Source: Rhodoligotrophos defluvii
GTDB taxonomy: Bacteria > Pseudomonadota > Alphaproteobacteria > Rhizobiales > Im1
Length of the DNA: 64,000 nucleotides
NCBI RefSeq assembly: GCF_005281615.1
Contig: NZ_SZZM01000003.1
Span: forward strand, 290,207 to 354,206
Reading direction: 5' to 3'
The notes beneath the pieces were generated by a model, which worked only from the letters and a program-made list of their open reading frames with translations, was not told the DNA's origin and did no database searches. Shown piece by piece: positions 19,124 through 34,084 of the stretch; position 1 is the stretch's first letter; every line of letters begins with the position of its first letter. The position numbers and the translations under genes are program-made.

Positions 19124-20407
19124 TCACAGCCTGACGTGATCGATCGCAAAGCCGCTCTCGGGCAGGGTCGGCATGCGGTTGAGCTTGATCGAAAGATCCT
19201 GCTCGGGCACCCGGTAATGCATGCAGAGCAGCAGGCTTGTCGCCTTCTTGGTCAGCTCGAGGGTGATGCGCTCGCCGGGGCAGCGATGACCGGTGAACAC
19301 ATTGCCGGCCCCCTGCGGCACCAGCGTATAGAGATCGTTGTCCCAGGCCGAGAACCGCTCGGGGCGAAAGGCGTTCGGCTCGGGCCAGATCTGCGGGTCG
19401 TGGTTGGTGCCGTGGAGGTCGAGCAGCACCCACTGGCCGGGCGGGATTGCGAAAGCCTCAAAGGCAAGCATCTCACGGGCAATGCCGCCAATGAAGGGGA
19501 AGAACGGATAATACCGCCGCACCTCCTGGGCAAAGGCTTCAAGGTCCCTGTCCGCGTGTGGATCGAGGCCCTTTGCCAGGTCCGGGAGGCTGTGGAGCGC
19601 ATGGGCCGCAAACACGATGAAATGACCCACGGCCACGGTAGGACGCAAGAGGTTGATCAGCTCGACTGCCGCAGCTTCCACCGAAAGCGGCTGGCCATCG
19701 AGGTCCCGGTGCTGAGCGATGCGCATCAGCGGGGCTTCGGGTGAGATGTTGAGACGCCCCGCCCGTGCGTCCTCGATGAGCGACCCGGCCCAGCGCTCGG
19801 TCTGGCGGCGGCGCCAGCGCGCCTGCCAGTAAGCCGGACCGAGCACCGACACCATCTCGATCATGTCGGAAAGGCTGCGGGTCAGGGCGCCCGCATCGAT
19901 GCTGGCGAGCGGCGCGCCGGTCCATTCGCATACGGCCCGGGCAATGATCCCGTTCACCTCGTCGAACAGCCTGACCGGCTGGCGCTGCGGCCATTGCGCC
20001 GCGACAAGCTGCCAGTGCCGGCTGAAGAGCTCCGTCAGCCGCGCGATGGACGGCTCGGTCATCAGCCCCATGAACATGGCTTTTCGCTGGCGGTGGGCGG
20101 CATCATCCAGCATTTGCACGCTGCCCTTGTCCTGGAGCAGCTTCACCACACGGCCCGGCATGGCCGCACCCGTGCGCGTGAACCGGTCGCCGTCATAGAA
20201 GAAGCGGGCGGCCTCGGCGCCGCCCATGCAAAGGACGTCGCGCAGCATCAGGCGCGTGCGGAAGACATTGCTGCCCAGTCTATGGCGGCGTCGCGCGATA
20301 TAGTCATAGCCATCGCGGAGCAAGGCCAGAGTGCCGTCGAATTCTGGCGCGCGGGGTATCGCGTGCTTCGCCGCGGTTGCTGTATCGGGGCTGGCGGCCA
20401 CTGACAT
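19124..20407 (-). CDS. Cytochrome P450 of the CYP152 peroxygenase type
   Basis: Heme-thiolate enzyme that uses hydrogen peroxide to hydroxylate fatty acids, needing no reductase. The heme-binding loop is PQGAGNVFTGHRCPGERIT with the axial Cys. The I-helix reads LINLLRPTVAVGHFIVFAAH: the Arg-Pro pair replaces the acid-alcohol pair of ordinary P450s, as in Bacillus P450 BSbeta and Sphingomonas P450 SPalpha. Other CYP152-like stretches are EVRRYYPFFPFIGG, LLDLHGTNHDPQIWPEP and RMPTLPESGF. Length 427 fits. There is no ferredoxin or reductase gene nearby. A perfect EcfG promoter (20449-20474) lies about 40 bases upstream of the start, so expression under stress, when peroxide is present, is likely. 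Regiochemistry (alpha or beta) cannot be read from sequence. Confidence 0.9.
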   Translation of the reverse strand: MSVAASPDTATAAKHAIPRAPEFDGTLALLRDGYDYIARRRHRLGSNVFRTRLMLRDVLCMGGAEAARFFYDGDRFTRTGAAMPGRVVKLLQDKGSVQMLDDAAHRQRKAMFMGLMTEPSIARLTELFSRHWQLVAAQWPQRQPVRLFDEVNGIIARAVCEWTGAPLASIDAGALTRSLSDMIEMVSVLGPAYWQARWRRRQTERWAGSLIEDARAGRLNISPEAPLMRIAQHRDLDGQPLSVEAAAVELINLLRPTVAVGHFIVFAAHALHSLPDLAKGLDPHADRDLEAFAQEVRRYYPFFPFIGGIAREMLAFEAFAIPPGQWVLLDLHGTNHDPQIWPEPNAFRPERFSAWDNDLYTLVPQGAGNVFTGHRCPGERITLELTKKATSLLLCMHYRVPEQDLSIKLNRMPTLPESGFAIDHVRL

Positions 20408-20488: not shown

Positions 20489-21514
20489 TCAGCGGCCGTA
20501 AATCCGGTCGAGCACCCTGGCGATGTCGAGCAGACGTTCGGCGGCGGGATCGTAACGACGGCACGCGGCAAGCTGCTTTACCCAGGCCACCCCGGCCCGG
20601 CCGCCCCAGGCATCCGGCGGCGAGGTCAGCACCTCTCGCGCAGTGCCGCGATAGCGCTCGGCCGTGAAATCATAGAACGAGCCATTCACGTTGCGCAGCG
20701 CGACGCCGCCCCGAGTGCCGTAGAAGGCTGCGGAAATCAGCGCATCCATGCCGGCCTGCAGCCGCCAGGAACAGGCCAGGCGCACCACCGTGCCCGTCTC
20801 CAGGCGCAACGTGGCATCCGCGTAATCCTCCACTGTGCGAGGTTGCGGTGGCAGCGGCTTGCCGCCGGCCAGAAGATGGCCGTTCACCTCCGCCACTCCG
20901 GGGAAATCGAGCGTCCATAGGGCGAGGTCGACCAGATGGACACCCAGGTCCATGACGCAGCCGCCGCCGGATAGGGCTGGATCATAGAACCAGCTCTTGT
21001 CCGGACCATAGGCGTTGTGAAACACCAGTTCGACCGCGTAGATCTCGCCCAGCTCGCCCGATTGGACCAGATCCCGGACGCGGCGCATGCCCTCGGTAAA
21101 GCGGTAGGAGAAATCGACCGCCAGCAGGCGGTCGGCCCGCCGCGCCGCCGCGAGCACCATTTCCACCTCCCGAGCGGTACGGCCGAGCGGCTTCTGACAG
21201 AACACCGCGGTGCCGCGCTCCAGCGCCGCGATCGACTGCTCGGCATGGAGCGCGCTGGGTGTCGCGATGACGACCCCGTCGAGCTCGAGATCGAGCAGAC
21301 TGTCGAGGTCGGCCGCCATGACGGCATCCGTCGCCAGCGCCTGCGCCGCCTCGAGCATCTCGGCCGAAGGATCCGCAATACCGACGATCTCGGCGATGCC
21401 GGCTTCCGCGATGGCTTCCATGCGGTGGCGGCCGATCCAGCCGATGCCGAGAAAGCCGAGGCGAGGCCGCTTGGCGCACGATTCCTTGGGCGTGTCCAGA
21501 ACGGGCTTGTCCAT
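20489..21514 (-). CDS. Gfo/Idh/MocA family oxidoreductase
   Basis: NAD(P)-dependent sugar or inositol-type dehydrogenase, 341 residues. The N-terminal Rossmann motif is LGFLGIGWIGRHRMEAI; the family EKP region reads CQKPLGRTAREVE, with Lys kept and Glu replaced by Gln; the C-terminal substrate domain includes GGGCVMDLGVHLVDLALW. ATG 21514 overlaps the stop of the upstream alcohol dehydrogenase gene (TGATG), so translation is coupled and the two may act on the same sugar alcohol or polyol. Substrate unknown. Confidence 0.9.
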   Translation of the reverse strand: MDKPVLDTPKESCAKRPRLGFLGIGWIGRHRMEAIAEAGIAEIVGIADPSAEMLEAAQALATDAVMAADLDSLLDLELDGVVIATPSALHAEQSIAALERGTAVFCQKPLGRTAREVEMVLAAARRADRLLAVDFSYRFTEGMRRVRDLVQSGELGEIYAVELVFHNAYGPDKSWFYDPALSGGGCVMDLGVHLVDLALWTLDFPGVAEVNGHLLAGGKPLPPQPRTVEDYADATLRLETGTVVRLACSWRLQAGMDALISAAFYGTRGGVALRNVNGSFYDFTAERYRGTAREVLTSPPDAWGGRAGVAWVKQLAACRRYDPAAERLLDIARVLDRIYGR

Positions 21515-22491
21515 CAGTACATCACCAGTGCCTTGAGAAAGCCATCCGGCCGGTCGCGCGTGGCGTTCAGCGCCTCGTCCAGCCGTTCGAGGGCAAAGCG
21601 ATGGGTATAGAGCGGCTGCGGTTCCAGCAGGCCCGAGGAGACTGCATCCACCGCCTCGCGCATGCCGCGGACATATTCCGCGGGGTCGCGCTCGTGCGCG
21701 TTGATGACGTCGAGTCCGCGCCAGTTCCACAGCTGCATGTTCACCTGCCGCGGCCCGTCCTGGTGGTAGCCGGCAATGACGAGCCGCCCGCGCTCGCGCG
21801 TGAGCTCGCCGGCCAGATCGAGCGGCCACGGCTTGCCTACGGCCTCGATCACCCGGTCGCAGAAGCGCCGGCCGGTGAGCGCTTTAACGCGATCGATGAT
21901 CGCATGGTGATCGTCCATGGGGATCACCTCGGCCGCGCCCATGCGGCGGGCCAGATCCAGCGCGAACGGCCGGCGCGAGATGGCAATGACCTCGGCGCCG
22001 GCGGCATAGGCGAGCCGGGTGAGCAGCGCGCCGAGAAATCCAATGCCGATGATGCACACGGTCTGCCCCGCCGCGACTTCGCTGCGACGGAAGATGTTCA
22101 TCGCACAGCCGAGCGGCTCGCCCGGGAAGGGCTGTCCGGCGAGCGCCTCGGGCAGAGGCACCACCGCGTCGGCTGCAGCGAGATCATACGTGCCATAGGC
22201 ATGGTGCGAGAGAGCGGCCACCCGGTCGCCGCGCTTGATCCCTTCCACGCCTTCGCCCACCGCATCGACGATGCCCCAGCCCTCGTGGCCCAGCGCTCCC
22301 GGCTCGGTTGGAAACCGCATCCATTCGGGCCCCGCCCAAGGACCGAGATTGGAGGCGCACACCCCGGAGCCTTCCAGCTTGATGCGCACCTCGCCCGGTT
22401 TCGGCTCAGGGATCGGCAAGGTATCGATACGGATCTGGCCCGGACCGGTAACGACCGCGGCCTGCATGGTTTTCGCGGAAAATGGCTTCAT
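21514..22491 (-). CDS. Zinc-type alcohol dehydrogenase (MDR superfamily)
   Basis: Medium-chain dehydrogenase, 325 residues from ATG 22491 (MKPFSAKTMQAAVV; an upstream in-frame ATG at 22545 would add an atypical tail). It has GHEGWGIVDAVGEGVEGIKRGDRVA (zinc-site Gly-His-Glu region), the cofactor-binding motif IIGIGFLGALLTRLA, and a typical C-terminal segment ending in DRPDGFLKALVMY. The structural-zinc four-Cys lobe is absent, as in a number of sugar-type MDRs. It precedes, and overlaps by one base, the Gfo/Idh gene, and it lies 67 bases after the DUF1003 gene, so the three may be read from the leftward stress promoter at 23210. Confidence 0.88.
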   Translation of the reverse strand: MKPFSAKTMQAAVVTGPGQIRIDTLPIPEPKPGEVRIKLEGSGVCASNLGPWAGPEWMRFPTEPGALGHEGWGIVDAVGEGVEGIKRGDRVAALSHHAYGTYDLAAADAVVPLPEALAGQPFPGEPLGCAMNIFRRSEVAAGQTVCIIGIGFLGALLTRLAYAAGAEVIAISRRPFALDLARRMGAAEVIPMDDHHAIIDRVKALTGRRFCDRVIEAVGKPWPLDLAGELTRERGRLVIAGYHQDGPRQVNMQLWNWRGLDVINAHERDPAEYVRGMREAVDAVSSGLLEPQPLYTHRFALERLDEALNATRDRPDGFLKALVMY

Positions 22492-22558
22492 CGGCAGGTT
22501 CCTGGCTAGAGGCTGTTTTGGGAACTCGGCAAAGGTCATGAACAATCAGTTGCGCAAA

Positions 22559-23101
22559 TCATGAGCCATCGCGGTCGTCGAGCTCGTCGAGCACCGTTTC
22601 CGGCTTCACGTCCTGCTTAAGCTCGGCGAGTTCCTCGTCGGCTTCGCTGTGAACATCGAGCTTGGCGGCGATGGCCGATGTGATCTCGACCAGCCTGGTG
22701 ATCTCGTGCTCGCTCAACAGAGAGATCTGCAGGTTGAGATCGGCGCGCTTGTCCGCCGTGGCGGCCATGCGATTTTGGCTGATCAGCACGAAGGTTGAAA
22801 GGAAGATCGCCTCGACGGAGGCGACCATGGCAAGAATGACAAGACTGGGATCCCAGGGCGCGACCGGTGGGATCCAGCCGAGATTGGCCGTGATCCAGAA
22901 GCCGAAGACCAGGACGTGGAGGTAGACCGAGCGCATGCTGCCGGTGAAGGCGGTGATCGCATCCGCGACGCGCTCCTGCAGCGGCAAGCGCGCCATCTCC
23001 TGCTCGCGGCGAGCAAGGATCGTCTGGATGTTGCGCTCCAGGATCGGCGCGATCCGCTTCGGCTGATCGGCCGATCCGTTCGCCGCCTTGGCCTGCGCCA
23101 T
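22559..23101 (-). CDS. DUF1003 family membrane protein
   Basis: A 180-residue protein with two membrane helices (VYLHVLVFGFWITANLGWI and SLVILAMVASVEAIFLSTFVLIS) followed by the typical SQNRMAATADKRADLNLQIS stretch and a cytoplasmic helical tail, the standard DUF1003 layout. Function is not established. The leftward EcfG-type promoter (GGAAC-N16-GGTT, 23210-23186) would start transcription near 23178, about 75 bases upstream of ATG 23101. Confidence 0.88.
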   Translation of the reverse strand: MAQAKAANGSADQPKRIAPILERNIQTILARREQEMARLPLQERVADAITAFTGSMRSVYLHVLVFGFWITANLGWIPPVAPWDPSLVILAMVASVEAIFLSTFVLISQNRMAATADKRADLNLQISLLSEHEITRLVEITSAIAAKLDVHSEADEELAELKQDVKPETVLDELDDRDGS

Positions 23102-23183: not shown

Positions 23184-23210
23184 GGAACCATTCTGGAACT
23201 TCAACGTTCC
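23184..23210. promoter_or_regulatory. Symmetric, overlapping bidirectional EcfG-type promoter
   Basis: Rightward: GGAAC (23184-23188), 16-base spacer, CGTT (23205-23208), perfect EcfG match. Leftward: GGAAC (23210-23206), 16-base spacer, GGTT (23189-23186), one mismatch. The -35 of each direction overlaps the -10 of the other, so both promoters occupy the same 27 bases. Rightward it would drive the glycan locus (ATG 23244, leader about 28 bases); leftward DUF1003 and possibly genes beyond it. Confidence 0.78.
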
Positions 23211-23243: not shown

Positions 23244-24371
23244 ATGGGGAAGGATTTGGACAAGGTTCTCGTCACCGGCGGCTGCGGCTTTATCGGCCGC
23301 CATGTAAGCCGCGAGCTTCAGGAGCATGGCTATCACGTGCGCGTGCTGGACTCCCTCGTCGAGCAGGTGCATGGCGCTGCCGAGGACGGCGGCGCGCCCA
23401 TCTCCGACGAGGTTGAGTTCATCCGCGGCGACATGCGCGATGCGGACACGGTCGCGCGCGCGCTCGACGGGGTCGACGGCGTGCTCCATCTCGCGGCGGA
23501 GGTGGGCGTCGGGCAATCCATGTATGAGATCGCCCGCTATGTGGGCGCCAATGACCTGGGCACTGCCGTGCTGCTCGAGCAGATGATCCAGCGGCCGATC
23601 AAACGCGTCGTGGTCGCGTCATCCATGAGCGTCTATGGCGAGGGGCTCTATGTCAGGCCAGACGGCAGCCGCGTGGGTAACGCACGCCGCCAGCCGTCGC
23701 GGGTAAAAGCGCTGCTGTGGGACCCGGTAGATGCGGATGGCAGCCCCTTGCGGCCGGTGCCGACCGATGAGGAAAAGCCGGTCGATCTCGCCTCGATCTA
23801 TGCGCTCACCAAATACGCGCAGGAACGCCAGGTACTGATCTTCGGTGAGGCCTATGGCGTCGAAGCGGTCGCGCTGCGCCTATTCAACGTCTTCGGCCCG
23901 GGACAGGCCCTGTCGAACCCCTACACGGGCGTGCTCGCCAATTTCGCCGCGCGGCTGGCCAACGACCAGCCGCCGATGATCTTCGAGGACGGCAACCAGC
24001 AGCGCGATTTCGTGCATGTACGCGATGTGGCGCGTGCCTTCCGCCTTGCGCTCGAGCAGCCACGCGCGTCCGGCCACGTCATCAATATCGGCAGCGGGAA
24101 GGCCTATTCGATCACCGAGGTCGCGACGCGCCTTGCCAAGGCCATGGGCAAGCCGGCCATTGCGCCAGACATCCTGCACAAGGCGCGGTCCGGCGACATC
24201 AGGAACTGCTTTGCCGACATCGCCAAGGCGCGCGACCTGTTGGGTTTCGAGCCGCAGCACAGGCTCGAACATTCCCTGGCGGAGCTCGCCGATTGGGTTA
24301 GGAGCACCTCCGCCGTGGATCGCGGTGCCGAGATGCGCCGCCAGTTGGAAGAGCGGGGCCTTGTATCATGA
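23244..24371 (+). CDS. Extended SDR, NAD-dependent nucleotide-sugar epimerase/dehydratase
   Basis: First gene of the glycan locus, 375 residues. The cofactor motif is VLVTGGCGFIGRHVSREL; the catalytic Tyr-x-x-x-Lys is YALTKYAQE with upstream VASSMSVYG; RLFNVFGPGQ and DFVHVRDVARAF are typical of sugar-nucleotide epimerases. An insertion (VRPDGSRVGNARRQPSRVKALLWDPVDADGSPL) resembles that of dTDP-L-rhamnose 4-epimerase-like enzymes, but the substrate cannot be fixed from sequence. Transcription is expected from the EcfG promoter 36-60 bases upstream. Its stop overlaps the next gene (ATGA at 24368). Confidence 0.88.
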   Translation: MGKDLDKVLVTGGCGFIGRHVSRELQEHGYHVRVLDSLVEQVHGAAEDGGAPISDEVEFIRGDMRDADTVARALDGVDGVLHLAAEVGVGQSMYEIARYVGANDLGTAVLLEQMIQRPIKRVVVASSMSVYGEGLYVRPDGSRVGNARRQPSRVKALLWDPVDADGSPLRPVPTDEEKPVDLASIYALTKYAQERQVLIFGEAYGVEAVALRLFNVFGPGQALSNPYTGVLANFAARLANDQPPMIFEDGNQQRDFVHVRDVARAFRLALEQPRASGHVINIGSGKAYSITEVATRLAKAMGKPAIAPDILHKARSGDIRNCFADIAKARDLLGFEPQHRLEHSLAELADWVRSTSAVDRGAEMRRQLEERGLVS

Positions 24372-26284
24372 CGGCGGAACCGGACGCGCCCGCGCAGGAC
24401 GCGCGACGCTTCGGCGTCGTCGAGCGGTTCCGGCCCGGCGACTATGATCAGGCCGAGCGAGCCATAGCGGAAATCGCGCGCTCCGGTGCCAGCCATATCC
24501 GCACCGGCTTGTCATGGGCCGAGTACCATGAAGAAGGCGGCAAGGCCTGGTTCGACTGGCTGATCCCGAAGCTCGCGGCTCAGTTCGACCTTCTGCCCTG
24601 CTTGAGCCCGCCATGGCCGGACGAGGCCGCCGATGCCCTCGATCATCTGCTGATCCGCTACGGCCACCATTTCCAGGCCATCGAACTGCCTTGGGACGGG
24701 CCGGAGCATGTGGTCGGCACCGCCGCCAGGCGCGCACGGCAGCGCGGCCATCGGCTGGTTCTCGGCGGCCTGTTCCTGTCCGATCTTCGCTGGCTGGACC
24801 TCATGGGCCAGAGGGGTTTGCTTGAGCATGTCTCCGCCGTCGGCCTGCGAGCTTTCCCCGCGACCTGGCGCAGCGGTATCGCCGATTGGACCGAGCCGCT
24901 CGGCCGCGTCCGGGCGCTTGTCGGTCGCTACAATCGGGATGCCGAAACATGGATCACCGAGGTGGGCCACCCCACCTGGCGCAACGACGAGGCCGAGCAG
25001 GTGCGGCGCTTTCTTGCGGCGCTGGATGCCCCGGCGGATCGCATCTATTGGTCGCGCTGGCGCGATGAGCCGGTGCAGGACGGCTTGGATCCCCAGCTCT
25101 CTCACCTGGGCGCCACCATGGCAGATGGTCGGCCGAAGCTTCTGGCGCGGCTGCTGATGGACGGTGGTGTCGCCAGGGCTCGGCAGATTGCGCGGCTGCC
25201 CGCGCCGGCCATGCTTGGGCGGACGAGACCGGTGGCTGTGCTGGGCGGCAGCGGCTTCATCGGCAGCAACCTTGCCCGAAGCTTCCTCGCCCGGGGCGAC
25301 GAGGTCATCGTCATCGACAATCTCAGCCGGCCGGGGGTTGATCGGAATCTCGACTGGCTGATGGACGAGCATGGCAGCCGGGTGCATCCTGTCCTGGCCG
25401 ACATTCGCGATCCGCTGGCGCTCGAGCCGGCGCTGCGCGATGCCGGGGCGGTGTTCCACTTGGCGGCCCAGACGGCGGTGACCACCAGCCTCGCCGACCC
25501 GCTGGACGATTTCGAGATCAACGCCCGCGGCACCATGAACGTGCTGGAGGCGGTTCGTCGGCAAGGCCGGCGGACACCCGTGATCTTCGCCAGCACCAAC
25601 AAGGTCTATGGCAGCCTGGACAATATTGCCCTCGCCGAGCTCGACGACCGGTACGTGCCCGCTGACGAGATGGTGCGGGCGCGCGGCATCAGCGAGGCGC
25701 GCAGCCTGGATTTCTGCACGCCCTATGGCTGTTCCAAGGGCGTCGCCGACCAGTATGTGCTGGACTATGCCAAGTCCTATGGCATTCCCACCGCCGTGCT
25801 GCGCATGAGCTGCATCTATGGTCCGCGCCAGTTCGGCACCGAGGACCAGGGCTGGGTCGCCCATTTCCTCATCCGCGCGCTGCAGGGCGAGCCGATCGTC
25901 ATCTATGGCGATGGCAAGCAGGTGCGCGACATCCTCCATGTGGACGATGCGGTAGCAGCCTACCGCGCGGTGCTTTCCTCCATCGATGCGGTGAGCGGGC
26001 ACGTGTTCAACCTGGGCGGCGGCCCACGCAATGCGGTGAGCCTGCGCAGCGTGATCCGCGAGATTGGCCGCATCATCGGACGGGACGTGCCTGTCACCTA
26101 CAGCGACTGGCGCAAGGGCGACCAGCTCTACTTCGTGGCCAATACCGGCAAGCTGGAAGACACGGTCGGCTGGAGTGCGCGCCGCAGCTGGCGCGAGGGT
26201 CTCGCCGACCTCGCCAGCTGGCTCAGGGCCAACCGGATCTTCCGGAACGAAGAGGCACCCCCTCTCGCGAGAGTGACGGCTTAA
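24368..26284 (+). CDS. Fusion of a glycoside-hydrolase-like TIM barrel and a nucleotide-sugar epimerase
   Basis: A 638-residue two-domain protein. Residues about 10-280 look like a clan GH-A (beta-xylosidase-like) barrel: AERAIAEIARSGASHIRTGLSW, then ITEVGHPTWRN with a candidate nucleophile Glu; the usual acid/base NEP motif is replaced by ELPWDGPEH, so hydrolase activity is doubtful. Residues about 286-630 are an extended SDR: AVLGGSGFIGSNLARSFLARG, catalytic TPYGCSKGVADQY, RMSCIYGPRQFG, DILHVDDAV, close in style to CDP-paratose 2-epimerase or UDP-glucose 4-epimerase. The frame is continuous with no sign of an assembly join. It is translationally coupled to the preceding epimerase gene. Such a fusion could channel a sugar nucleotide or bind a glycan primer; function unknown. 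Confidence 0.85.
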   Translation: MTAEPDAPAQDARRFGVVERFRPGDYDQAERAIAEIARSGASHIRTGLSWAEYHEEGGKAWFDWLIPKLAAQFDLLPCLSPPWPDEAADALDHLLIRYGHHFQAIELPWDGPEHVVGTAARRARQRGHRLVLGGLFLSDLRWLDLMGQRGLLEHVSAVGLRAFPATWRSGIADWTEPLGRVRALVGRYNRDAETWITEVGHPTWRNDEAEQVRRFLAALDAPADRIYWSRWRDEPVQDGLDPQLSHLGATMADGRPKLLARLLMDGGVARARQIARLPAPAMLGRTRPVAVLGGSGFIGSNLARSFLARGDEVIVIDNLSRPGVDRNLDWLMDEHGSRVHPVLADIRDPLALEPALRDAGAVFHLAAQTAVTTSLADPLDDFEINARGTMNVLEAVRRQGRRTPVIFASTNKVYGSLDNIALAELDDRYVPADEMVRARGISEARSLDFCTPYGCSKGVADQYVLDYAKSYGIPTAVLRMSCIYGPRQFGTEDQGWVAHFLIRALQGEPIVIYGDGKQVRDILHVDDAVAAYRAVLSSIDAVSGHVFNLGGGPRNAVSLRSVIREIGRIIGRDVPVTYSDWRKGDQLYFVANTGKLEDTVGWSARRSWREGLADLASWLRANRIFRNEEAPPLARVTA

Positions 26285-26369
26285 CCCCATCCGGCTCGCC
26301 GTGCAGATATCAGCCCGCCCGGCCAGCCGGTGCCATCAATGCAACCGCAGCGCTATCGCGCGAGGAGAC

Positions 26370-27473
26370 ATGTTGCAGAGGCCGAGACACCACCCCACGC
26401 GTGTTCTGATGACCATCGATGCGGTCGGCGGCGTCTGGCGGTACGCTATGGAACTCGCCATGGCCTTGGGCCGGCGTGGCATCGAAGTGGTCTTTGCCGG
26501 TTTCGGGCCGCAGCCTTCCCCGGCGCAACGGGCGGAGGCCGACCGCATCGGGCAGCTGGCCTGGCTCGATGCGCCGCTGGACTGGATGGCGGAAGAAGCG
26601 TCCGCCTTGCGGAAAGTTCCCGAGTTGATCGCCAAGCTTGCCGATGACGTTGAAGCAGATCTTCTGCACCTCAACCTGCCATCGCAAGCGAGCGGCTTGA
26701 CGGTCTCGGCGCCGGTGCTGGTGGTGTCCCATTCCTGCGTCGTGAGCTGGTTCCGCGCTGTCCGGAATGGACCCGTGCCGGAGCACTGGACCTGGCAGGC
26801 AGACCTCAACCGGGCCGGCTTCGCCAGCGCTCACGCCGTGGTGGCGCCGAGCCGCAGCCATGCGGCCATGTTGAAGGCCTGCTACGGACCCATTCAAGGC
26901 CTGACCGTTATTCACAATGGCTTGGAGGGGGCCATTTCCGCGGAACCTAAGCAGGATTTCGTCTTCGCCGCGGGCCGGTGGTGGGACGATGGGAAGAACG
27001 GCGCGGTGCTGGACGAGGCGGCGCGCCACATCGTGTGGCCGGTGAAGGCGGCCGGGGCGACGCAAGGCCCCAACGGCCGGGGCTTTGCCTTTCATCATGC
27101 CCGCGCGCTCGGCGAGATTGCCCATGGCAAGGTCCGCCAGCTCATGGGCGAGGCCGCCATCGTGGTGTCGCCTTCGATTTATGAACCGTTCGGCCTCGTC
27201 GCGCTGGAGGGCGCGCGCGCGCAAGCAGCCCTCGTTCTCGCCGATATCCCGACCTATCGCGAGCTCTGGGACGGCGCGGCCGTGTTCGCCGATCCCCGGG
27301 AGCCGAAGGCCTTCGCTGAAGCTGTCAACCGCCTTGCCCGTCATCCGGCGCAGCGGGCCGAGCTCGGCCGGCGCGCCTTCGCCCGCGCGCAAGCCTATTC
27401 CAGCACCACCCAATGCGCCGCCTTCAGCGCGCTCTACGAGCGGCTGACAGCCATGGCGGCCGCCCTTCCCTGA
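26370..27473 (+). CDS. Glycosyltransferase family 4 protein
   Basis: GT-B fold transferase of 367 residues. The N-terminal VLMTIDAVGGVWRYAMELAMAL is the acceptor-side motif of GT4 enzymes. The C-terminal donor domain has IVVSPSIYEPFGLVALEGARA, the E-x7-E nucleotide-sugar motif. The start is uncertain: the frame is open from GTG 26301; ATG 26370 has GAGGAG but only two bases away, and ATG 26409 is also possible. It follows the fusion gene and precedes three CgeB-like transferases, so it probably acts early in assembling the same glycan. Confidence 0.85.
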   Translation: MLQRPRHHPTRVLMTIDAVGGVWRYAMELAMALGRRGIEVVFAGFGPQPSPAQRAEADRIGQLAWLDAPLDWMAEEASALRKVPELIAKLADDVEADLLHLNLPSQASGLTVSAPVLVVSHSCVVSWFRAVRNGPVPEHWTWQADLNRAGFASAHAVVAPSRSHAAMLKACYGPIQGLTVIHNGLEGAISAEPKQDFVFAAGRWWDDGKNGAVLDEAARHIVWPVKAAGATQGPNGRGFAFHHARALGEIAHGKVRQLMGEAAIVVSPSIYEPFGLVALEGARAQAALVLADIPTYRELWDGAAVFADPREPKAFAEAVNRLARHPAQRAELGRRAFARAQAYSSTTQCAAFSALYERLTAMAAALP

Positions 27474-27492
27474 CATCTCAAAGCGGAGGCCC

Positions 27493-28629
27493 ATGCGTTT
27501 CGCTCTCTATACCCATTCCCTTGTGTCCGACTGGAACCACGGCAATGCCCACTTCCTGCGCGGCCTCATGCGCGAGCTGATCGCCCGCGGGATCGAGGCC
27601 GTGGCCTTCGAGCCGGCAAAGGGCTGGAGCCGGGAGAACCTGCTCAACGAACAGGGCCCGTCGGCACTGGCGCGTTTCGAGCACGATTTCCCCGAGCTCA
27701 AGACGACGCTCTACGGGCCGGGCTTCGACCACGAGGCGGCCCTTGCTCAAATGCAGCCAGACGTGGTGATCGTGCATGAGTGGACCGACCCGGAGCTGGT
27801 GGCACGCCTCGGCAGGATGCGCCGCGACGGCCACGGCTTCACCCTGCTGTTCCACGATACGCATCATCGGGCCGCCTCGGCCCACGATCAGATCGCCAAC
27901 CTCATGTTGCAGGACTATGACGCGGTGCTCGCTTTCGGCGAGACGCTGCGCGAGCGCTATGTGAAGGCGGGCTGGGGCCGGCAGGTCTTCACCTGGCACG
28001 AAGCGGCCGATGATCGGCTGTTCCGGCCGATGCCCGAGGTGAAGCGCACGCGGGACCTGATCTGGATCGGCAACTGGGGCGATGGCGAGCGCACGGCCGA
28101 GCTGTCGCGCTTCCTGGTCGAGCCTGCCCGGCAGCTCGAGGTTTCCGGCACGATCCACGGCGTGCGCTATCCTCAGGATGCGGTCTCCATGCTCTCCACC
28201 ACCGGCCTGCGCTACCAGGGGTGGATCGCCAATGCGGATGTGCCGCGGGCGTTTGCCGCGCACAAGGTCACGCTTCACATTCCGCGGCGCCCCTATGTCG
28301 AGGCGCTGCCAGGCATTCCGACGATCCGGGTCTTCGAGGCGCTGGCCTGCGGCATCCCGCTCATCTCAGCGCCGTGGAACGACTGCGAGGGCCTGTTCCG
28401 CCCGGGCGAGGATTTCCTCTATGCGCGCGATGGCGAGGAAATGACCAGATTGTTGGCTGAGCTCCTGGCGGATCCGGAGCGGACGGCAGAGCTCGCCGCA
28501 TCCGGCCTTGCCACCATTCAGGCGCGCCATACCTGTCGCCACCGCGTCGACGAGCTCTTCGCCATTCTCGAAAGCTGCGGCAGCGATCGCCTCGTCCGTC
28601 AACTCCCGACACCCAAGGCCGCGCAATGA
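27493..28629 (+). CDS. CgeB-like glycosyltransferase (first of three)
   Basis: A 378-residue GT-B transferase of the CgeB / glycosyltransferase 1-2 type. The N terminus (FALYTHSLVSDWNHGNAHF, then LRGLMRELIARG) shares a pattern with the next two genes. The donor side has IPTIRVFEALACGIPLISA, then the PGEDFLYARDGEEM segment. It contains FHDTHHRA in the middle, a His-rich loop not present in its two neighbours. Good ribosome site (AAGCGGAGG before ATG 27493). The stop overlaps the next start (ATGA at 28626). Confidence 0.85.
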   Translation: MRFALYTHSLVSDWNHGNAHFLRGLMRELIARGIEAVAFEPAKGWSRENLLNEQGPSALARFEHDFPELKTTLYGPGFDHEAALAQMQPDVVIVHEWTDPELVARLGRMRRDGHGFTLLFHDTHHRAASAHDQIANLMLQDYDAVLAFGETLRERYVKAGWGRQVFTWHEAADDRLFRPMPEVKRTRDLIWIGNWGDGERTAELSRFLVEPARQLEVSGTIHGVRYPQDAVSMLSTTGLRYQGWIANADVPRAFAAHKVTLHIPRRPYVEALPGIPTIRVFEALACGIPLISAPWNDCEGLFRPGEDFLYARDGEEMTRLLAELLADPERTAELAASGLATIQARHTCRHRVDELFAILESCGSDRLVRQLPTPKAAQ

Positions 28630-29720
28630 AGATCGCATTCTACGGCTCCAGCCTTCTGTCTTCCTACTGGAACGGCGCCGCGACCTACTATCGCGGCCTG
28701 CTGCGGGCGCTCGCGGCGCGCGGCTTCGACATCACCTTCTATGAGCCGGATGTCTATGACCGGCAGAAGCATCGCGACATAGATCCGCCCGACTGGTGCA
28801 AAGTGGTGGTCTATGACGGCACGCTCGATGCGCTCAAGGCGGTGGCCGCCAGGGCGTGCGAGGCCGATGTGGTGGTGAAGGCCAGCGGCGTCGGCTTCGA
28901 GGACGATGCGCTGCTCGCCCATGTGCTCGCCGCCGCCCGGCCGGAGGCCATCAAGATTTTCTGGGACGTCGATGCGCCGGCGACTCTTGCCGAGCTGCGT
29001 GCCCATCCCGACCATCCCCTCCGCCGGTCCCTCGGCAGGATCGACCTCGTGCTGACCTATGGCGGTGGCGATCCGGTGGTGCGGGCCTATCGCAGCATCG
29101 GGGCTGCCGAATGCGTGCCGATCTACAATGCCCTCGATCCGGAGACGCACCACCCCGTGCCGCGGGATGAGCGTTTCGATGGCGACCTCGCGTTTCTCGG
29201 CAACCGGCTGCCCGACCGGGAGGCGCGGGTCGAGGCCTTCTTCCTTGAACCCGCCGCGCGCCTGCCCGGCCAGCGCTTCCTCCTGGGCGGTGCCGGCTGG
29301 GGCGACAAGCCCATGTCGCCGAACGTGACCTATATCGGCCATGTCTCGACCCGCGACCACAATGCCTTCAACGTCACGCCCAAGGCGGTCCTGAACATCA
29401 GCCGGGAGAGCATGGCGCAGAACGGCTTTTCTCCGGCAACCCGCGTGTTCGAGGCGGCAGGCGCTGCCGCCTGCCTGATCACCGATGCCTGGGTAGGCTT
29501 GGACATCTTCCTGAAGGAGGGGGAGGAGGTGCTGGTCGCGCGCGACGGCAAGGATGTGGCTGACCTGCTCGCCGCCCTTACCCCCGAACGGGGCCGCCAG
29601 ATCGGCGAGCGGGCACGCCAACGGGTGCTGCGGGAGCATACCTATGCCCACCGCGCGGCCGAGGTCGACCGCATTCTCCATGCCTATGCCGGGCGCGCAA
29701 TGAGCGAGGTGGCGCGATGA
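28626..29720 (+). CDS. CgeB-like glycosyltransferase (second of three)
   Basis: A 364-residue GT-B protein. The N terminus is KIAFYGSSLLSSYWNGAATY with YRGLLRALAARGF; the middle shows FFWDVDAPATLAELRA-type sequence (IKIFWDVDAPATLAEL) shared with the third copy (CFYDIDTPVTLAKL); the donor domain reads TRVFEAAGAAACLITDAW and EGEEVLVARDGKDV. In Bacillus CgeB is linked to the spore glycan; in this locus the donor and acceptor are unknown. It is coupled by four-base overlaps to both neighbours. Confidence 0.85.
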   Translation: MKIAFYGSSLLSSYWNGAATYYRGLLRALAARGFDITFYEPDVYDRQKHRDIDPPDWCKVVVYDGTLDALKAVAARACEADVVVKASGVGFEDDALLAHVLAAARPEAIKIFWDVDAPATLAELRAHPDHPLRRSLGRIDLVLTYGGGDPVVRAYRSIGAAECVPIYNALDPETHHPVPRDERFDGDLAFLGNRLPDREARVEAFFLEPAARLPGQRFLLGGAGWGDKPMSPNVTYIGHVSTRDHNAFNVTPKAVLNISRESMAQNGFSPATRVFEAAGAAACLITDAWVGLDIFLKEGEEVLVARDGKDVADLLAALTPERGRQIGERARQRVLREHTYAHRAAEVDRILHAYAGRAMSEVAR

Positions 29721-30838
29721 TGCCGCCGTCGCTCGACATCGTCGTGCTCGGCCTCTCCCTCTCCTCTTCCTGGGGAAACGGGCATGCCACCACCTATCGC
29801 GGGCTCTTGCGCGCCTTGAACCAGCTCGGCCACCGGGTGCTGTTCCTCGAACGGGACATGCCCTGGTATGCGAACCACCGCGACCTCGCCGACCCCGACT
29901 TCTGCGCGCTTGAGTATTATGCGAGCGTCGACGATCTCATCACCCGCTTTGCCGGACAGATCAAACGCGCCGACGCGGTGATCGTCGGCTCCTATGTGCC
30001 GGAAGGCGTGGTGGTCATCGACGAGGTGTCCCGCCTGGTGGCGCGCAGCCGCGGCACGAACGCCTTCTGCTTCTATGATATCGACACACCGGTGACCCTG
30101 GCCAAGCTCCGGCGCGGCGACGAGGAATATATCGCCCGGCGCCAGGTGCCGCTGTTCGATGTCTATTTCTCGTTTTCCGGCGGGCCGGTGCTCAATGTGA
30201 TCGAGCAGGAGTTCGGGGCGCGCTTCGCCGCCGCCCTCTACTGCTCGGCCGATCCGGAGCGGTACTGCCCCACGGGTGAGCCCATCCAATGGGACCTGGG
30301 CTATCTCGGCACCTATAGCCCCGACCGCCAGCCGGCACTCGAGCGGCTGTTGCTCGAACCGGCCCGGCAGCTGCCGGAAATGCGCTTCGCGGTCGCAGGG
30401 CCGCAATATCCTGCCGATATTCAATGGCCGGCCAATGTGGAGCGCATCGAACACCTGGGCCCGGCCGACCACCCCTCCTTCTATTCCAGACAGCGTTTCA
30501 CCCTGAACATTACCCGTGCCGACATGGTCGCGGCCGGCTGGTCCCCCAGTGTGCGCCTGTTCGAAGCGGCTGCCTGCGGCACCCCGGTGATCAGCGATGA
30601 CTGGGATGGCCTCGACCGGATCTTCCCTGACGGCGAAGCGATCCTCATTGCCCGATCGAGCGAAGACGTGGTGACGGTACTGTCCAAGATGACCGAAGCA
30701 AAGCGAGGCTCCATCGGTCAAGCCGCACGTGCGTGCGTGTTGAGCGCCCATACAGGGGAAGCACGCGCGAAGGAGCTTCTATTTTGCCTTGGAACCTGTT
30801 GGCGGCAGAGCCGTTTTGTACAACAGGCGGGCGCATGA
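29717..30838 (+). CDS. CgeB-like glycosyltransferase (third of three)
   Basis: A 373-residue GT-B protein, closer to the second copy than to the first: IVVLGLSLSSSWGNGHATTY and RGLLRALNQLGHRVLFLERD at the N terminus, FCFYDIDTPVTLAKLRRG in the middle, and SVRLFEAAACGTPVISDDW in the donor domain. The start overlaps the second copy (ATGA at 29717). The final ~30 residues are basic and end in QAGA, not conserved with the others. It probably adds the next residue on the same chain. Confidence 0.85.
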   Translation: MMPPSLDIVVLGLSLSSSWGNGHATTYRGLLRALNQLGHRVLFLERDMPWYANHRDLADPDFCALEYYASVDDLITRFAGQIKRADAVIVGSYVPEGVVVIDEVSRLVARSRGTNAFCFYDIDTPVTLAKLRRGDEEYIARRQVPLFDVYFSFSGGPVLNVIEQEFGARFAAALYCSADPERYCPTGEPIQWDLGYLGTYSPDRQPALERLLLEPARQLPEMRFAVAGPQYPADIQWPANVERIEHLGPADHPSFYSRQRFTLNITRADMVAAGWSPSVRLFEAAACGTPVISDDWDGLDRIFPDGEAILIARSSEDVVTVLSKMTEAKRGSIGQAARACVLSAHTGEARAKELLFCLGTCWRQSRFVQQAGA

Positions 30839-30883
30839 CCGCCCTGTGGATCGGCCATTTTGCTTGACGAAAGGGCTCGCAAC

Positions 30884-31918
30884 ATGAGTATCGGCACCAA
30901 GAGTAATACAAAAAAGACGATTGTTGTTACAGGCGGGGCCGGTTTTATTGGATCACATCTGTGCGAATTTTTTCTTGCGCAGGGATACAAAGTAATATGC
31001 ATCGACAATTACCTGACTGGCTCGAAAAACAATATCGATCGCTGGAAGGATCATGCCAAATTTAAGTTGATAGAGCAGGATATCTGCGAGACGATCGAAA
31101 TAGATGAGCCGATCGACTGCATCTACAATCTGGCCTGCCCGGCGTCGCCTGTACATTACCAGGCGGATCCCGTGCATACGATGATGAGCAACGTGCTCGG
31201 CACTCGCAACCTTCTGTTGCTGGCAGAGCAGCATGGCGCCACGTTCGTGCAGGCTTCGACCAGCGAAGTCTACGGCGATCCCGAACAGCACCCGCAGCTG
31301 GAGACCTACTGGGGCCACGTGAACTGCACGGGCCCACGCGCCTGCTATGATGAGGGCAAGCGTGCCGCCGAAGCGCTCTGCTTCGATTTTTTTCGCGCCG
31401 GCCGGGTCGATGCCCGGGTCGCCCGCATCTTCAACACCTATGGCCCTCGCATGCAGCCGGATGACGGCCGCATCATCTCAAACCTCGTGATGCAGGCGCT
31501 CAAGGGCGAGCCGCTCACCGTCTATGGCAGCGGCAATCAGACCCGCTCGTTCTGCTATGTCTCCGACATGGTGCGCGGGCTGGTGGCGATGATGGAGATG
31601 AGCCCCAATCGTGGCCTGCCGATCAATCTTGGCAACCCGCAGGAATTCACCATAAACGAACTCGCCGAGCTGGTGCTGGTGCTGGTGCCGACCACCTCGA
31701 AGATCCTGTACAAGCCCCTGCCAGCCGACGATCCGCAGCGGCGCAAGCCCGACATCAGCCGGGCAAGAGAGATCCTGAAATGGCAACCGCGGGTTCCCCT
31801 CGCAGAGGGCCTGCTCAAGACCATTGGCTGGTTCTCGCAGATTGCCAATCGCCGTGTCGTACCCCAGAAGCTCAAGCCGGCCGCCGCCAAGGAGAGTCTG
31901 GCGCGCAGCGCAATCTAG
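30884..31918 (+). CDS. UDP-glucuronate decarboxylase (UDP-xylose synthase)
   Basis: Extended SDR that oxidises and decarboxylates UDP-glucuronic acid to UDP-xylose. Signature motifs: TGGAGFIGSHLCEFFLAQG, the decarboxylase-specific YNLACPASPVHYQ, STSEVYGDPEQHPQ, catalytic Tyr/Lys in RACYDEGKRAAEAL, RIFNTYGPRM and NLGNPQEFTI. ATG 30884 (MSIGTKSNTKK) follows GAAAGGG; a TTG at 30860 is less likely. About the first 200 bases are visibly richer in A/T than the rest. As last gene of the locus it suggests that xylose, or arabinose if an epimerase here acts on UDP-xylose, is built into the product. Confidence 0.93.
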   Translation: MSIGTKSNTKKTIVVTGGAGFIGSHLCEFFLAQGYKVICIDNYLTGSKNNIDRWKDHAKFKLIEQDICETIEIDEPIDCIYNLACPASPVHYQADPVHTMMSNVLGTRNLLLLAEQHGATFVQASTSEVYGDPEQHPQLETYWGHVNCTGPRACYDEGKRAAEALCFDFFRAGRVDARVARIFNTYGPRMQPDDGRIISNLVMQALKGEPLTVYGSGNQTRSFCYVSDMVRGLVAMMEMSPNRGLPINLGNPQEFTINELAELVLVLVPTTSKILYKPLPADDPQRRKPDISRAREILKWQPRVPLAEGLLKTIGWFSQIANRRVVPQKLKPAAAKESLARSAI

Positions 31919-32010: not shown

Positions 32011-32271
32011 ATGGCAGAAGCGAAGAAAACCACCAATCACGATGAAATCCGCAAATGGGCGGAAGCGCACGGCGGACGCCCTGCCCACGTGAGCCGGACT
32101 GGCAATGGTGACGATGCGGGCATCCTCAGGCTGGATTTCGGCGAGCCGGACGAGCAGCTTGAAGAGATTTCCTGGGAGGAGTTCTTCGAGAAGTTCGAGG
32201 AGAAAAAGCTGGCTCTGCTGTACCAGGACGAGGACGACAGCCGGTTCAACAAGTTTGTCCGGCGCGATTGA
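32011..32271 (+). CDS. Small conserved acidic protein (86 aa), unknown function
   Basis: Starts KKTTNHDEIRKWAEAHGGRP and continues through GDDAGILRLDF, then EISWEEFFEKFEEKKLALLYQ and SRFNKFVRRD. This small acidic family is widely conserved in bacteria and sometimes misnamed glucan branching enzyme; no activity is known. ATG 32011 is chosen by GCAAGGAGC upstream; the open frame extends to 31780 but lies over the UXS gene. A 10-base direct repeat CTTGCAAGCG (31972-31981 and 31984-31993) precedes the ribosome site. It ends before a strong shared hairpin with the convergent DUF2267 gene. Confidence 0.82.
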   Translation: MAEAKKTTNHDEIRKWAEAHGGRPAHVSRTGNGDDAGILRLDFGEPDEQLEEISWEEFFEKFEEKKLALLYQDEDDSRFNKFVRRD

Positions 32272-32329: not shown

Positions 32330-32842
32330 TCAGCCACGTTGTTGCGCGCCTGCCCCGCGTTCCGCCTGCTCGCGGCGCGCGGCCGGACTTCCTTGCATAG
32401 TCCCTTGCCCATCGGCGCCGGCGCCGAACAGCCGGCGGATCTCCTGAGGCAAAGCCTGCTTCACGTCATCCATCTCGCCGGGCGCGATATGCCGGTCGAG
32501 CACCTGGAAGACCGCGCGGGTGCAGTCCACCGCGTCCATGGGCGGCATGTCGCCGATCCGCTTCTGCACAAGCGCGATGAACTCGTCGAGAGAGCGCACC
32601 GTCAGGGGTTGGATTGAAGGCCGGTAGCCCTCGTAATAGATGCCGCGCACCAGGAGAGGCAGCTGCGCGCCGAGATGGGCCGCCTGGTCGGTGGTCAGCC
32701 GGTCCCTCAGGGTCTGCAGCACAGCGCGCAGCGCATGATAGCAGCGCTGCTTGTCGGGACCGATCACTTCGCCGATCTCGCCAAGCCAGATATGGGTGGC
32801 CTGGAGCGACCTGTCGAAAACTTCAAGGCCGGTTGCACTCAT
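32330..32842 (-). CDS. DUF2267 family protein
   Basis: A 170-residue soluble helical protein with the DUF2267 pattern (TGLEVFDRSLQATHIWLGEI, RAVLQTLRDRLTTDQAAHLGAQLP, LVRGIYYEGYRP, then EFIALVQKRIG and AVFQVLDRHIAPGEMDDVKQALPQ). Members are often found beside CBS-domain and stress genes; the role is unknown. The C-terminal ~25 residues are low-complexity. Start ATG 32842 has a very strong ribosome site (AAGGAGG). It lies 12 bases after the CBS gene, clearly one operon. Confidence 0.88.
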   Translation of the reverse strand: MSATGLEVFDRSLQATHIWLGEIGEVIGPDKQRCYHALRAVLQTLRDRLTTDQAAHLGAQLPLLVRGIYYEGYRPSIQPLTVRSLDEFIALVQKRIGDMPPMDAVDCTRAVFQVLDRHIAPGEMDDVKQALPQEIRRLFGAGADGQGTMQGSPAARREQAERGAGAQQRG

Positions 32843-32854
32843 GAGGTTACCTCC

Positions 32855-33283
32855 TTATCGGTCTGGCTCGGAGGGTGAGGAGATCTCTTCCAGGGTCTGC
32901 TCGACATCCTCGCTCTCGCTCTTCGTGGCGAGGTCGCCCAACGACACGATACCGACCAGCCGCTGGTCATGGTCGATGACGGGCACACGCCTGATCTGGA
33001 CGTCGGCCATCTTGTCGAGCACGTCGTCGACGTCATCGTCGTCGTAGCACCACACCACCTCGTCGGTCATGGCATCCGAGACCCTGGTCTCGCTGGGCGG
33101 CTGGCCCGCCGCTGTCGCCCGTACGGCAATGTCACGGTCGGTGATCATGCCGACCAGACGATTGCCATCGCAGACCGGCAGCACACCGACGTTGAGCTGA
33201 TCCATCATGCGCGCGGCTTCGCTCAGCGGCGCGCCTGGGGAAACGACACGGACGTCACGTGTCATCACGCTTGCGATATTCAT
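32855..33283 (-). CDS. CBS domain pair protein
   Basis: A 142-residue protein made of two CBS motifs ([20 protein letters not shown] to [33 protein letters not shown] to [13 protein letters not shown]), which form one Bateman module binding adenosine nucleotides. There is no catalytic domain, so it is a sensor or adaptor. The acidic stretch [10 protein letters not shown] is unusual. ATG 33283 is set by AGGAGG just upstream; the open frame to 33337 is not needed. An EcfG-like element (GGAAC-N16-CATT) lies 75-100 bases upstream. Confidence 0.92.
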
Positions 33284-33357
33284 GCGCATCCTCCTCATGA
33301 TGAGAGATGCCACCCGGCGGCTGGGAGCCGATTGCACACGGGCGGTCTATTTCAGGC

Positions 33358-34029: not shown

Positions 34030-34059
34030 GTCATGTCCTCCATTTGCCTTTGAAGGGGG

Positions 34060-34084
34060 AACCCGAGCATAGGGGCACGGTTCC
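34060..34084 (-). promoter_or_regulatory. EcfG-like promoter of the two small hydrophilic protein genes
   Basis: Minus strand: GGAAC (34084-34080), 16-base spacer, GGTT (34063-34060). Same one-base variant of the -10 as in the two divergent promoters at 18573 and 23186. Leader about 24 bases. Confidence 0.6.

Follow-up and report, generated by a model that had tools for sequence, protein, structure and literature searches.

A conserved two-locus gene cluster of alphaproteobacteria with a predicted role in the synthesis of a stress-related oligosaccharide

Seven sugar-related genes in a 64,000-nucleotide stretch of the Rhodoligotrophos defluvii genome (the window) belong to a conserved pathway of at least 12 genes with conserved EcfG-type promoters. 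On balance, we lean towards the view that this two-locus pathway produces a small O-methylated oligosaccharide that is soluble and made in the cytosol, and that the pathway is switched on by EcfG and likely yields a stress protectant. In alphaproteobacteria, many genes without an assigned product are under the control of the general stress response. Annotated copies of the cluster are located on plasmid p42b of Rhizobium etli CFN42 and on pSymB-type plasmids of Sinorhizobium meliloti, in which knock-outs and metabolite analysis are routine.

Gene content of the two loci

The seven open reading frames (g1 to g7), all on the forward strand, span positions 23244–31918 of the window. Their coordinates and direction matched those in the preliminary description, and comparison with Pfam and PDB upheld the families named there: an epimerase, a GT4 enzyme, three CgeB-like transferases and a UDP-xylose synthase. 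g1 (23244..24371) encodes an extended SDR resembling NDP-sugar 4-epimerases (relatives of GalE and MoeE5). g2 (24368..26284) encodes a TIM-barrel glycosidase-like domain (residues ~1–280) fused to an SDR (~289–620). The SDR part scored 268 and 260 bits against structures of CDP-tyvelose 2-epimerase (125 bits for the next relative); judged by sequence, it is probably a member of that family, with a presumed substrate. No equivalog cut-off was reached when the SDRs were searched against NCBIfam. g3 (26301..27473; PF13439 and PF00534) is a GT4 glycosyltransferase gene whose true start is probably nearer 26370. It is followed by three genes for PF13524 (CgeB-type) glycosyltransferases, g4 (27493..28629; 7.6e-41), g5 (28626..29720) and g6 (29717..30838; 2.7e-40), with matches between 1e-39 and 1e-41. 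g7 (30860..31918), whose ATG is probably at ~30884, encodes a UDP-glucuronate decarboxylase (UDP-xylose synthase, UXS) with 385 bits to 4gll; it is closest to characterised UXS and carries the TSEVYGD, YDEGK and RRKPDI motifs, so the enzyme that makes a xylose donor, as claimed earlier, is present by sequence. Stop-start overlaps, previously ascribed to most junctions, are real at three of the six (24368/24371, 28626/28629 and 29717/29720), and the others are gaps of 16–21 nt.

Since a profile search of PDB sequences with g5 found no real relative, its fold was compared instead. The structure model (pLDDT 87) predicted a GT-B fold, and the best match was the methylmannose polysaccharide mannosyltransferase ManT (7qsg), followed by BshA/MshA; sequence identity to ManT is only ~15%, and the likeness is one of fold only. 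The preliminary description had noted that CgeB is known for the Bacillus spore-surface glycan. The PF13524 domain is all that the cluster has in common with the Bacillus CgeAB system, from which it differs in gene content and regulation, and the shared domain is not evidence of such a glycan. To our knowledge, sporulation does not occur in this class.

The seven genes had been taken as the whole biosynthetic unit; however, the pathway extends beyond them and beyond the window. Divergent from g1 and on the reverse strand are genes for a Zn-dependent alcohol dehydrogenase (ADH; 21514..22545) and, by Pfam, a Gfo/Idh/MocA oxidoreductase (MocA; 20489..21517), and this pair (20489–22545) also belongs to the pathway. 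The longest open reading frame for MocA begins at 21829, but a start near 21517 suits the domain better. Between the divergent arms is a gene for a DUF1003 protein (22559..23101, reverse strand; Pfam), a frequent neighbor found near the cluster in ~20 loci, which is not a core member.

The other genes reside at a second locus, locus B, on another contig (L037; G000:C1, ~1.060–1.068 Mb). This locus encodes INO1 (inositol-phosphate synthase), a histidine phosphatase, a fourth PF13524 transferase, a nucleotidyltransferase, a TIGR04290 methyltransferase (G000:C1:1063942-1064616; 387 bits against a cut-off of 300) and a small glycosidase. The loci are adjacent in Mesorhizobium, Microvirga and Bradyrhizobium. 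INO1 is close to the mycothiol INO1 model, but scores below its equivalog cut-off; because it is missing from eight of 14 positive genomes, it was rejected as the defining gene of the pathway. The glycosidase gene of locus B is followed by genes for a PIG-L deacetylase, an MshA-like GT4 and an Acetyltransf_6 (GNAT) protein (L037:5006-7946), a trio that recalls mycothiol synthesis and is found in a minority of genomes.

Conservation of the cluster and EcfG-type promoter sites

The preliminary description had proposed a search for conserved co-occurrence, and synteny indeed holds: the genes are not scattered in relatives. The order g1-g2-g3-g4-g5-g6-g7 was found, with few exceptions, in 80 named loci from GTDB genomes, in genera including Rhizobium, Sinorhizobium, Mesorhizobium, Devosia, Microvirga, Roseomonas and Paracoccus; altogether, the synteny extends over more than 90 loci and ~20 genera. 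g1, g3 and g4 were each found in 97 of 100 loci, and g6 lies directly 3′ of g5 in nearly all. In many loci g7 is followed by the TIGR04290 gene, and the cluster is accompanied by the divergent Zn-ADH and Gfo/Idh/MocA genes. An order-level search with g5 matched 13 of 199 genomes, and in every one of them another transferase, similar to g6, was encoded close by. Of 289 genomes of the class, 14 (~5%, about one in twenty alphaproteobacteria) had both TIGR04290 and g5 and none had only one of them, an overlap with a chance probability of ~1 in 10^23 if genomes are assumed to be independent and relatedness is ignored. In a phylum sample, g5 was present in all 13 TIGR04290-positive genomes and in none of three negatives.

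Two NCBIfam hypothetical equivalogs, TIGR04290 (meth_Rta_06860) and TIGR04295 (B12_rSAM_oligo), mark exactly this cluster, for which 'rhizo-twelve system' is presumably the curators' label. The locus was previously called undescribed. It is uncharacterised, and our literature search found no paper naming TIGR04290, TIGR04295 or the cluster; it is not unseen, however, as two of its families have models. Each of these models covers one family and specifies neither product nor function, and the 'oligo' in the name of TIGR04295 already hints at an oligosaccharide context. An oligosaccharide biosynthesis cluster is thus of a known kind, whereas no description of the product, the enzyme exchange or the permuted glycosidase (see below) was found in the literature.

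An EcfG-type site, GGAAC-N17-GTT, precedes g1 on the forward strand (GGAACCATTCTGGAACTTCAACGTT; 23184..23208), ~36 nt 5′ of the ATG. It overlaps an EcfG-like site of the same form on the reverse strand (GGAACGTTGAAGTTCCAGAATGGTT; 23186..23210), which faces the DUF1003, ADH and MocA genes and lies 109 nt 5′ of the DUF1003 gene. We then counted GGAAC-N16-18-GTT upstream of the genes in distinct loci. For g1, 81 of 93 loci had such a site no more than 300 nt away (mostly at −45 to −68); the counts were 34 of 41 for INO1, 36 of 60 for ADH and 11 of 20 for DUF1003 genes near clusters, whereas the inner genes had one in 0–5%. A slightly looser motif occurs in 7% of random 500-bp segments, but the g1 site is conserved at the same position in other genera, indicating that it is more than chance. 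Locus B of this genome has an imperfect, one-base variant (GGAAC-N16-GCTT), and the genome encodes NepR of the PhyR-NepR-EcfG switch (PF18557, 4.8e-14).

Beyond Rhizobiales, in a broader sample of the class, the strict motif was seen in only four of 17 g1 regions and three of 11 INO1 regions, indicating that conserved EcfG control applies to Rhizobiales, and we rejected it as a universal feature. The EcfG promoter proposed earlier is therefore present in the window and conserved in the order, but weak in other orders; the motif pattern supports EcfG control of the cluster in Rhizobiales.

Enzyme exchange and forms of the glycosidase

In many lineages, the gene between g2 and g3 encodes TIGR04295, a B12-binding radical SAM (rSAM) protein. 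Among the 289 genomes it is confined to those positive for the system, occurring in 12 of the 14. It is absent from this genome (G000), which has ADH and MocA instead; ADH was also found in 11 other genomes. Out of 100 loci, 61 had ADH only, 26 had rSAM only, none had both and 13 had neither, and MocA accompanied ADH in 58 of the 61. The same held for 32 system-positive genomes, in which ADH was sought genome-wide and rSAM genome-wide or in the locus: 12 had ADH, 19 had rSAM, none had both, and the only genome to lack both is incompletely assembled (83%). This mutual exclusion is most simply explained if the two systems perform the same step. We infer that this step is inversion of a carbinol, either via a ketone (ADH followed by MocA) or by a radical route.

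The glycosidase also occurs in alternative forms. It is fused to g2 in 35 loci and encoded as a free protein beside the methyltransferase in 38, never both in one locus; INO1 is present in 36 of the 38 free-form loci and in none of the 35 fused-form loci. Both forms keep the motifs WNEPNN and W-x-x-E-x-G, whose glutamates may, by analogy, be the acid/base and the nucleophile, respectively. The g2 copy in the window has WDGPEH in place of WNEPNN, with a deletion of ~17 residues there. The fusion noted in the preliminary description is thus real, but its glycosidase domain is degenerate in this genome and probably inactive. The genome retains an intact free copy, and in a congeneric species g2 lacks the glycosidase portion. 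In our reading, this lineage has exchanged the fused type for the free one.

The free glycosidase (L037:7954-8883 and L145:19882-20811) is circularly permuted: it begins at WNEPNN (strand 4), and barrel strands 1–3 are at its C-terminus. In BLAST comparisons of free with fused forms, the segments were swapped, with residues 2–184 aligning to 108–288 (2.5e-20) and 192–298 to 1–109 (6e-11), and the rotated free sequence aligned end to end with the fused form (2e-33). The model of the free protein contains eight strands in barrel order (mean pLDDT 76). In this genome its start codon overlaps the stop codon of the methyltransferase gene, so an annotation error at the N-terminus is unlikely. Foldseek and VIA-align returned generic TIM barrels only. 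The one solved relative by sequence, PslG (E 0.009), is too weak a match, and we assigned no GH family.

Predicted product and neighboring genes

In the route that we propose, NDP-sugars would be supplied by g1 (a 4-epimer), the C-terminal domain of g2 (a 2-epimer) and g7 (UDP-xylose); the substrates are predicted from families that change specificity easily. g3 and the three or four PF13524 GT-B enzymes would each add one residue. INO1 and the histidine phosphatase of locus B would provide myo-inositol, which likely serves as core or acceptor, a step that appears optional in some lineages. ADH would oxidise a single carbinol, in either the core or a sugar, and MocA would re-reduce it, resulting in inversion; the B12-radical SAM enzyme, which replaces the pair in other lineages, may carry out this chemistry there. 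The TIGR04290 methyltransferase would methylate a hydroxyl group, and the cytosolic glycosidase, here the free form of locus B, may trim, transfer or recycle the product. We infer that the product contains xylose and is perhaps built on inositol, although the patchy occurrence of INO1 means that inositol may not be the core.

No membrane spans were predicted in the locus proteins, all of which are predicted to be soluble, and the earlier observation that flippase, polymerase and export genes are lacking proved correct. None of the conserved genes encodes a lipid-carrier enzyme, a flippase, a polymerase or an exporter. It is therefore most likely that the product remains cytosolic and acts there as a stress protectant alongside trehalose, the synthesis of which is controlled by EcfG in Bradyrhizobium (PMC8092242). 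Absence of export genes near the loci may also be compatible with export by a transporter encoded elsewhere.

Somewhat unlikely, in our judgment, is a glycan attached to lipid or protein or forming part of the envelope, built by soluble glycosyltransferases at the inner face of the inner membrane and exported by a housekeeping flippase. PF13524 and GT4 enzymes often work peripherally on lipid acceptors, genes for a polysaccharide pyruvyl transferase and an FrhB-like protein, of types found in surface-glycan clusters, adjoin the cluster in S. meliloti and a few others, and GT4, PIG-L and GNAT genes come after locus B in this genome. However, the conserved members lack membrane proteins altogether, with neither an initiating polyprenyl-phosphate transferase nor Wzx, Wzy or an ABC exporter among them, and INO1 and the phosphatase, where present, would yield a soluble acceptor.

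We consider it improbable that the cluster makes a secreted secondary metabolite, such as an aminoglycoside- or everninomicin-like pseudo-oligosaccharide with a cyclitol core derived from INO1 and ADH/MocA or the radical SAM enzyme. This reading draws on the nearest relative of the TIGR04290 methyltransferase, EvdMO1 of everninomicin oligosaccharide synthesis, on the proximity of g1 to MoeE5, on the relation of the TIGR04295 family to AprD4 and HpnJ, and on the resemblance of INO1, the phosphatase and the oxidoreductases to enzymes of cyclitol antibiotics; but no resistance, efflux or dedicated regulatory gene is conserved in the cluster, and a general-stress promoter and a gene order kept across rhizobia would be unusual for an antibiotic. 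A role in a familiar pathway, as a step in LPS core, succinoglycan, cyclic glucan or capsule synthesis, is very improbable and was set aside, because, generic as the sugar enzymes are and although some rhizobial LPS use UDP-xylose, no NCBIfam equivalog for LPS or EPS steps reached its cut-off, no paper was found on the marker families, and the patchy distribution excludes an essential core step.

Returning to the soluble cytosolic oligosaccharide, the nearest working analog may be the mycobacterial methylmannose polysaccharide (MMP) system, which comprises a glycosyltransferase, a methyltransferase and a recycling glycosidase (PMC9883506), and the nearest regulatory analog EcfG-controlled trehalose synthesis. 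As in the MMP cluster, a GT-B transferase, a methyltransferase and a glycosidase (an endo-glycosidase in MMP) occur together, and the fold of g5 is closest to ManT; unlike MMP, this system has several glycosyltransferases, UDP-xylose, often inositol, and another kind of glycosidase. With trehalose synthesis it would share the placing of a cytosolic saccharide pathway under EcfG in rhizobia, here a far larger one. Mycothiol and bacillithiol biosynthesis (Ino1-MshA-MshB, BshA) is similar in INO1, in the MshA/BshA-like fold of g5, and in the PIG-L and GNAT genes by locus B, but no cysteine ligase was seen here, and sugar-supply genes, a methyltransferase and a glycosidase are extra.

More tentatively, rhizobia and many other alphaproteobacteria may make a new class of solute for general stress, namely an inositol oligosaccharide that is O-methylated and contains xylose, with rSAM and ADH/MocA catalyzing the same step and a naturally circularly permuted glycosidase as the processing enzyme. 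Once found, the product would be an added stress metabolite that may bear on the desiccation survival of inoculants, and its identity would reveal the reaction common to two unrelated enzyme systems.

Several other genes adjoin the cluster. An 86-aa protein without a Pfam family is encoded downstream of g7 (32011..32271, forward strand); its membership is uncertain. It neighbors the cluster in 44 of 123 loci and is often transcribed divergently from g1. A ~580-aa protein, also without a Pfam family and with phosphoribosyltransferase-like and kinase-like motifs by eye, is encoded beside the cluster in ~28 loci (e.g., L125:13544-15307 and L225:12969-14723), but neither of the two loci in this genome showed it. 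The S. meliloti pyruvyl transferase and FrhB-like genes (L224:8411-10886) hint at pyruvylation in some lineages. A cytochrome P450 gene after MocA (19124–20407) is retained by another species of the genus (L036), and two Sinorhizobium/Ensifer loci (L105 and L132) have relatives (40–41%) close to the cluster. Finally, a second overlapping, opposed pair of GGAAC-N17-GTT sites, possibly a two-way EcfG promoter, is located at 34058–34084, near DUF2267 and CBS-domain genes at 32330–33337.
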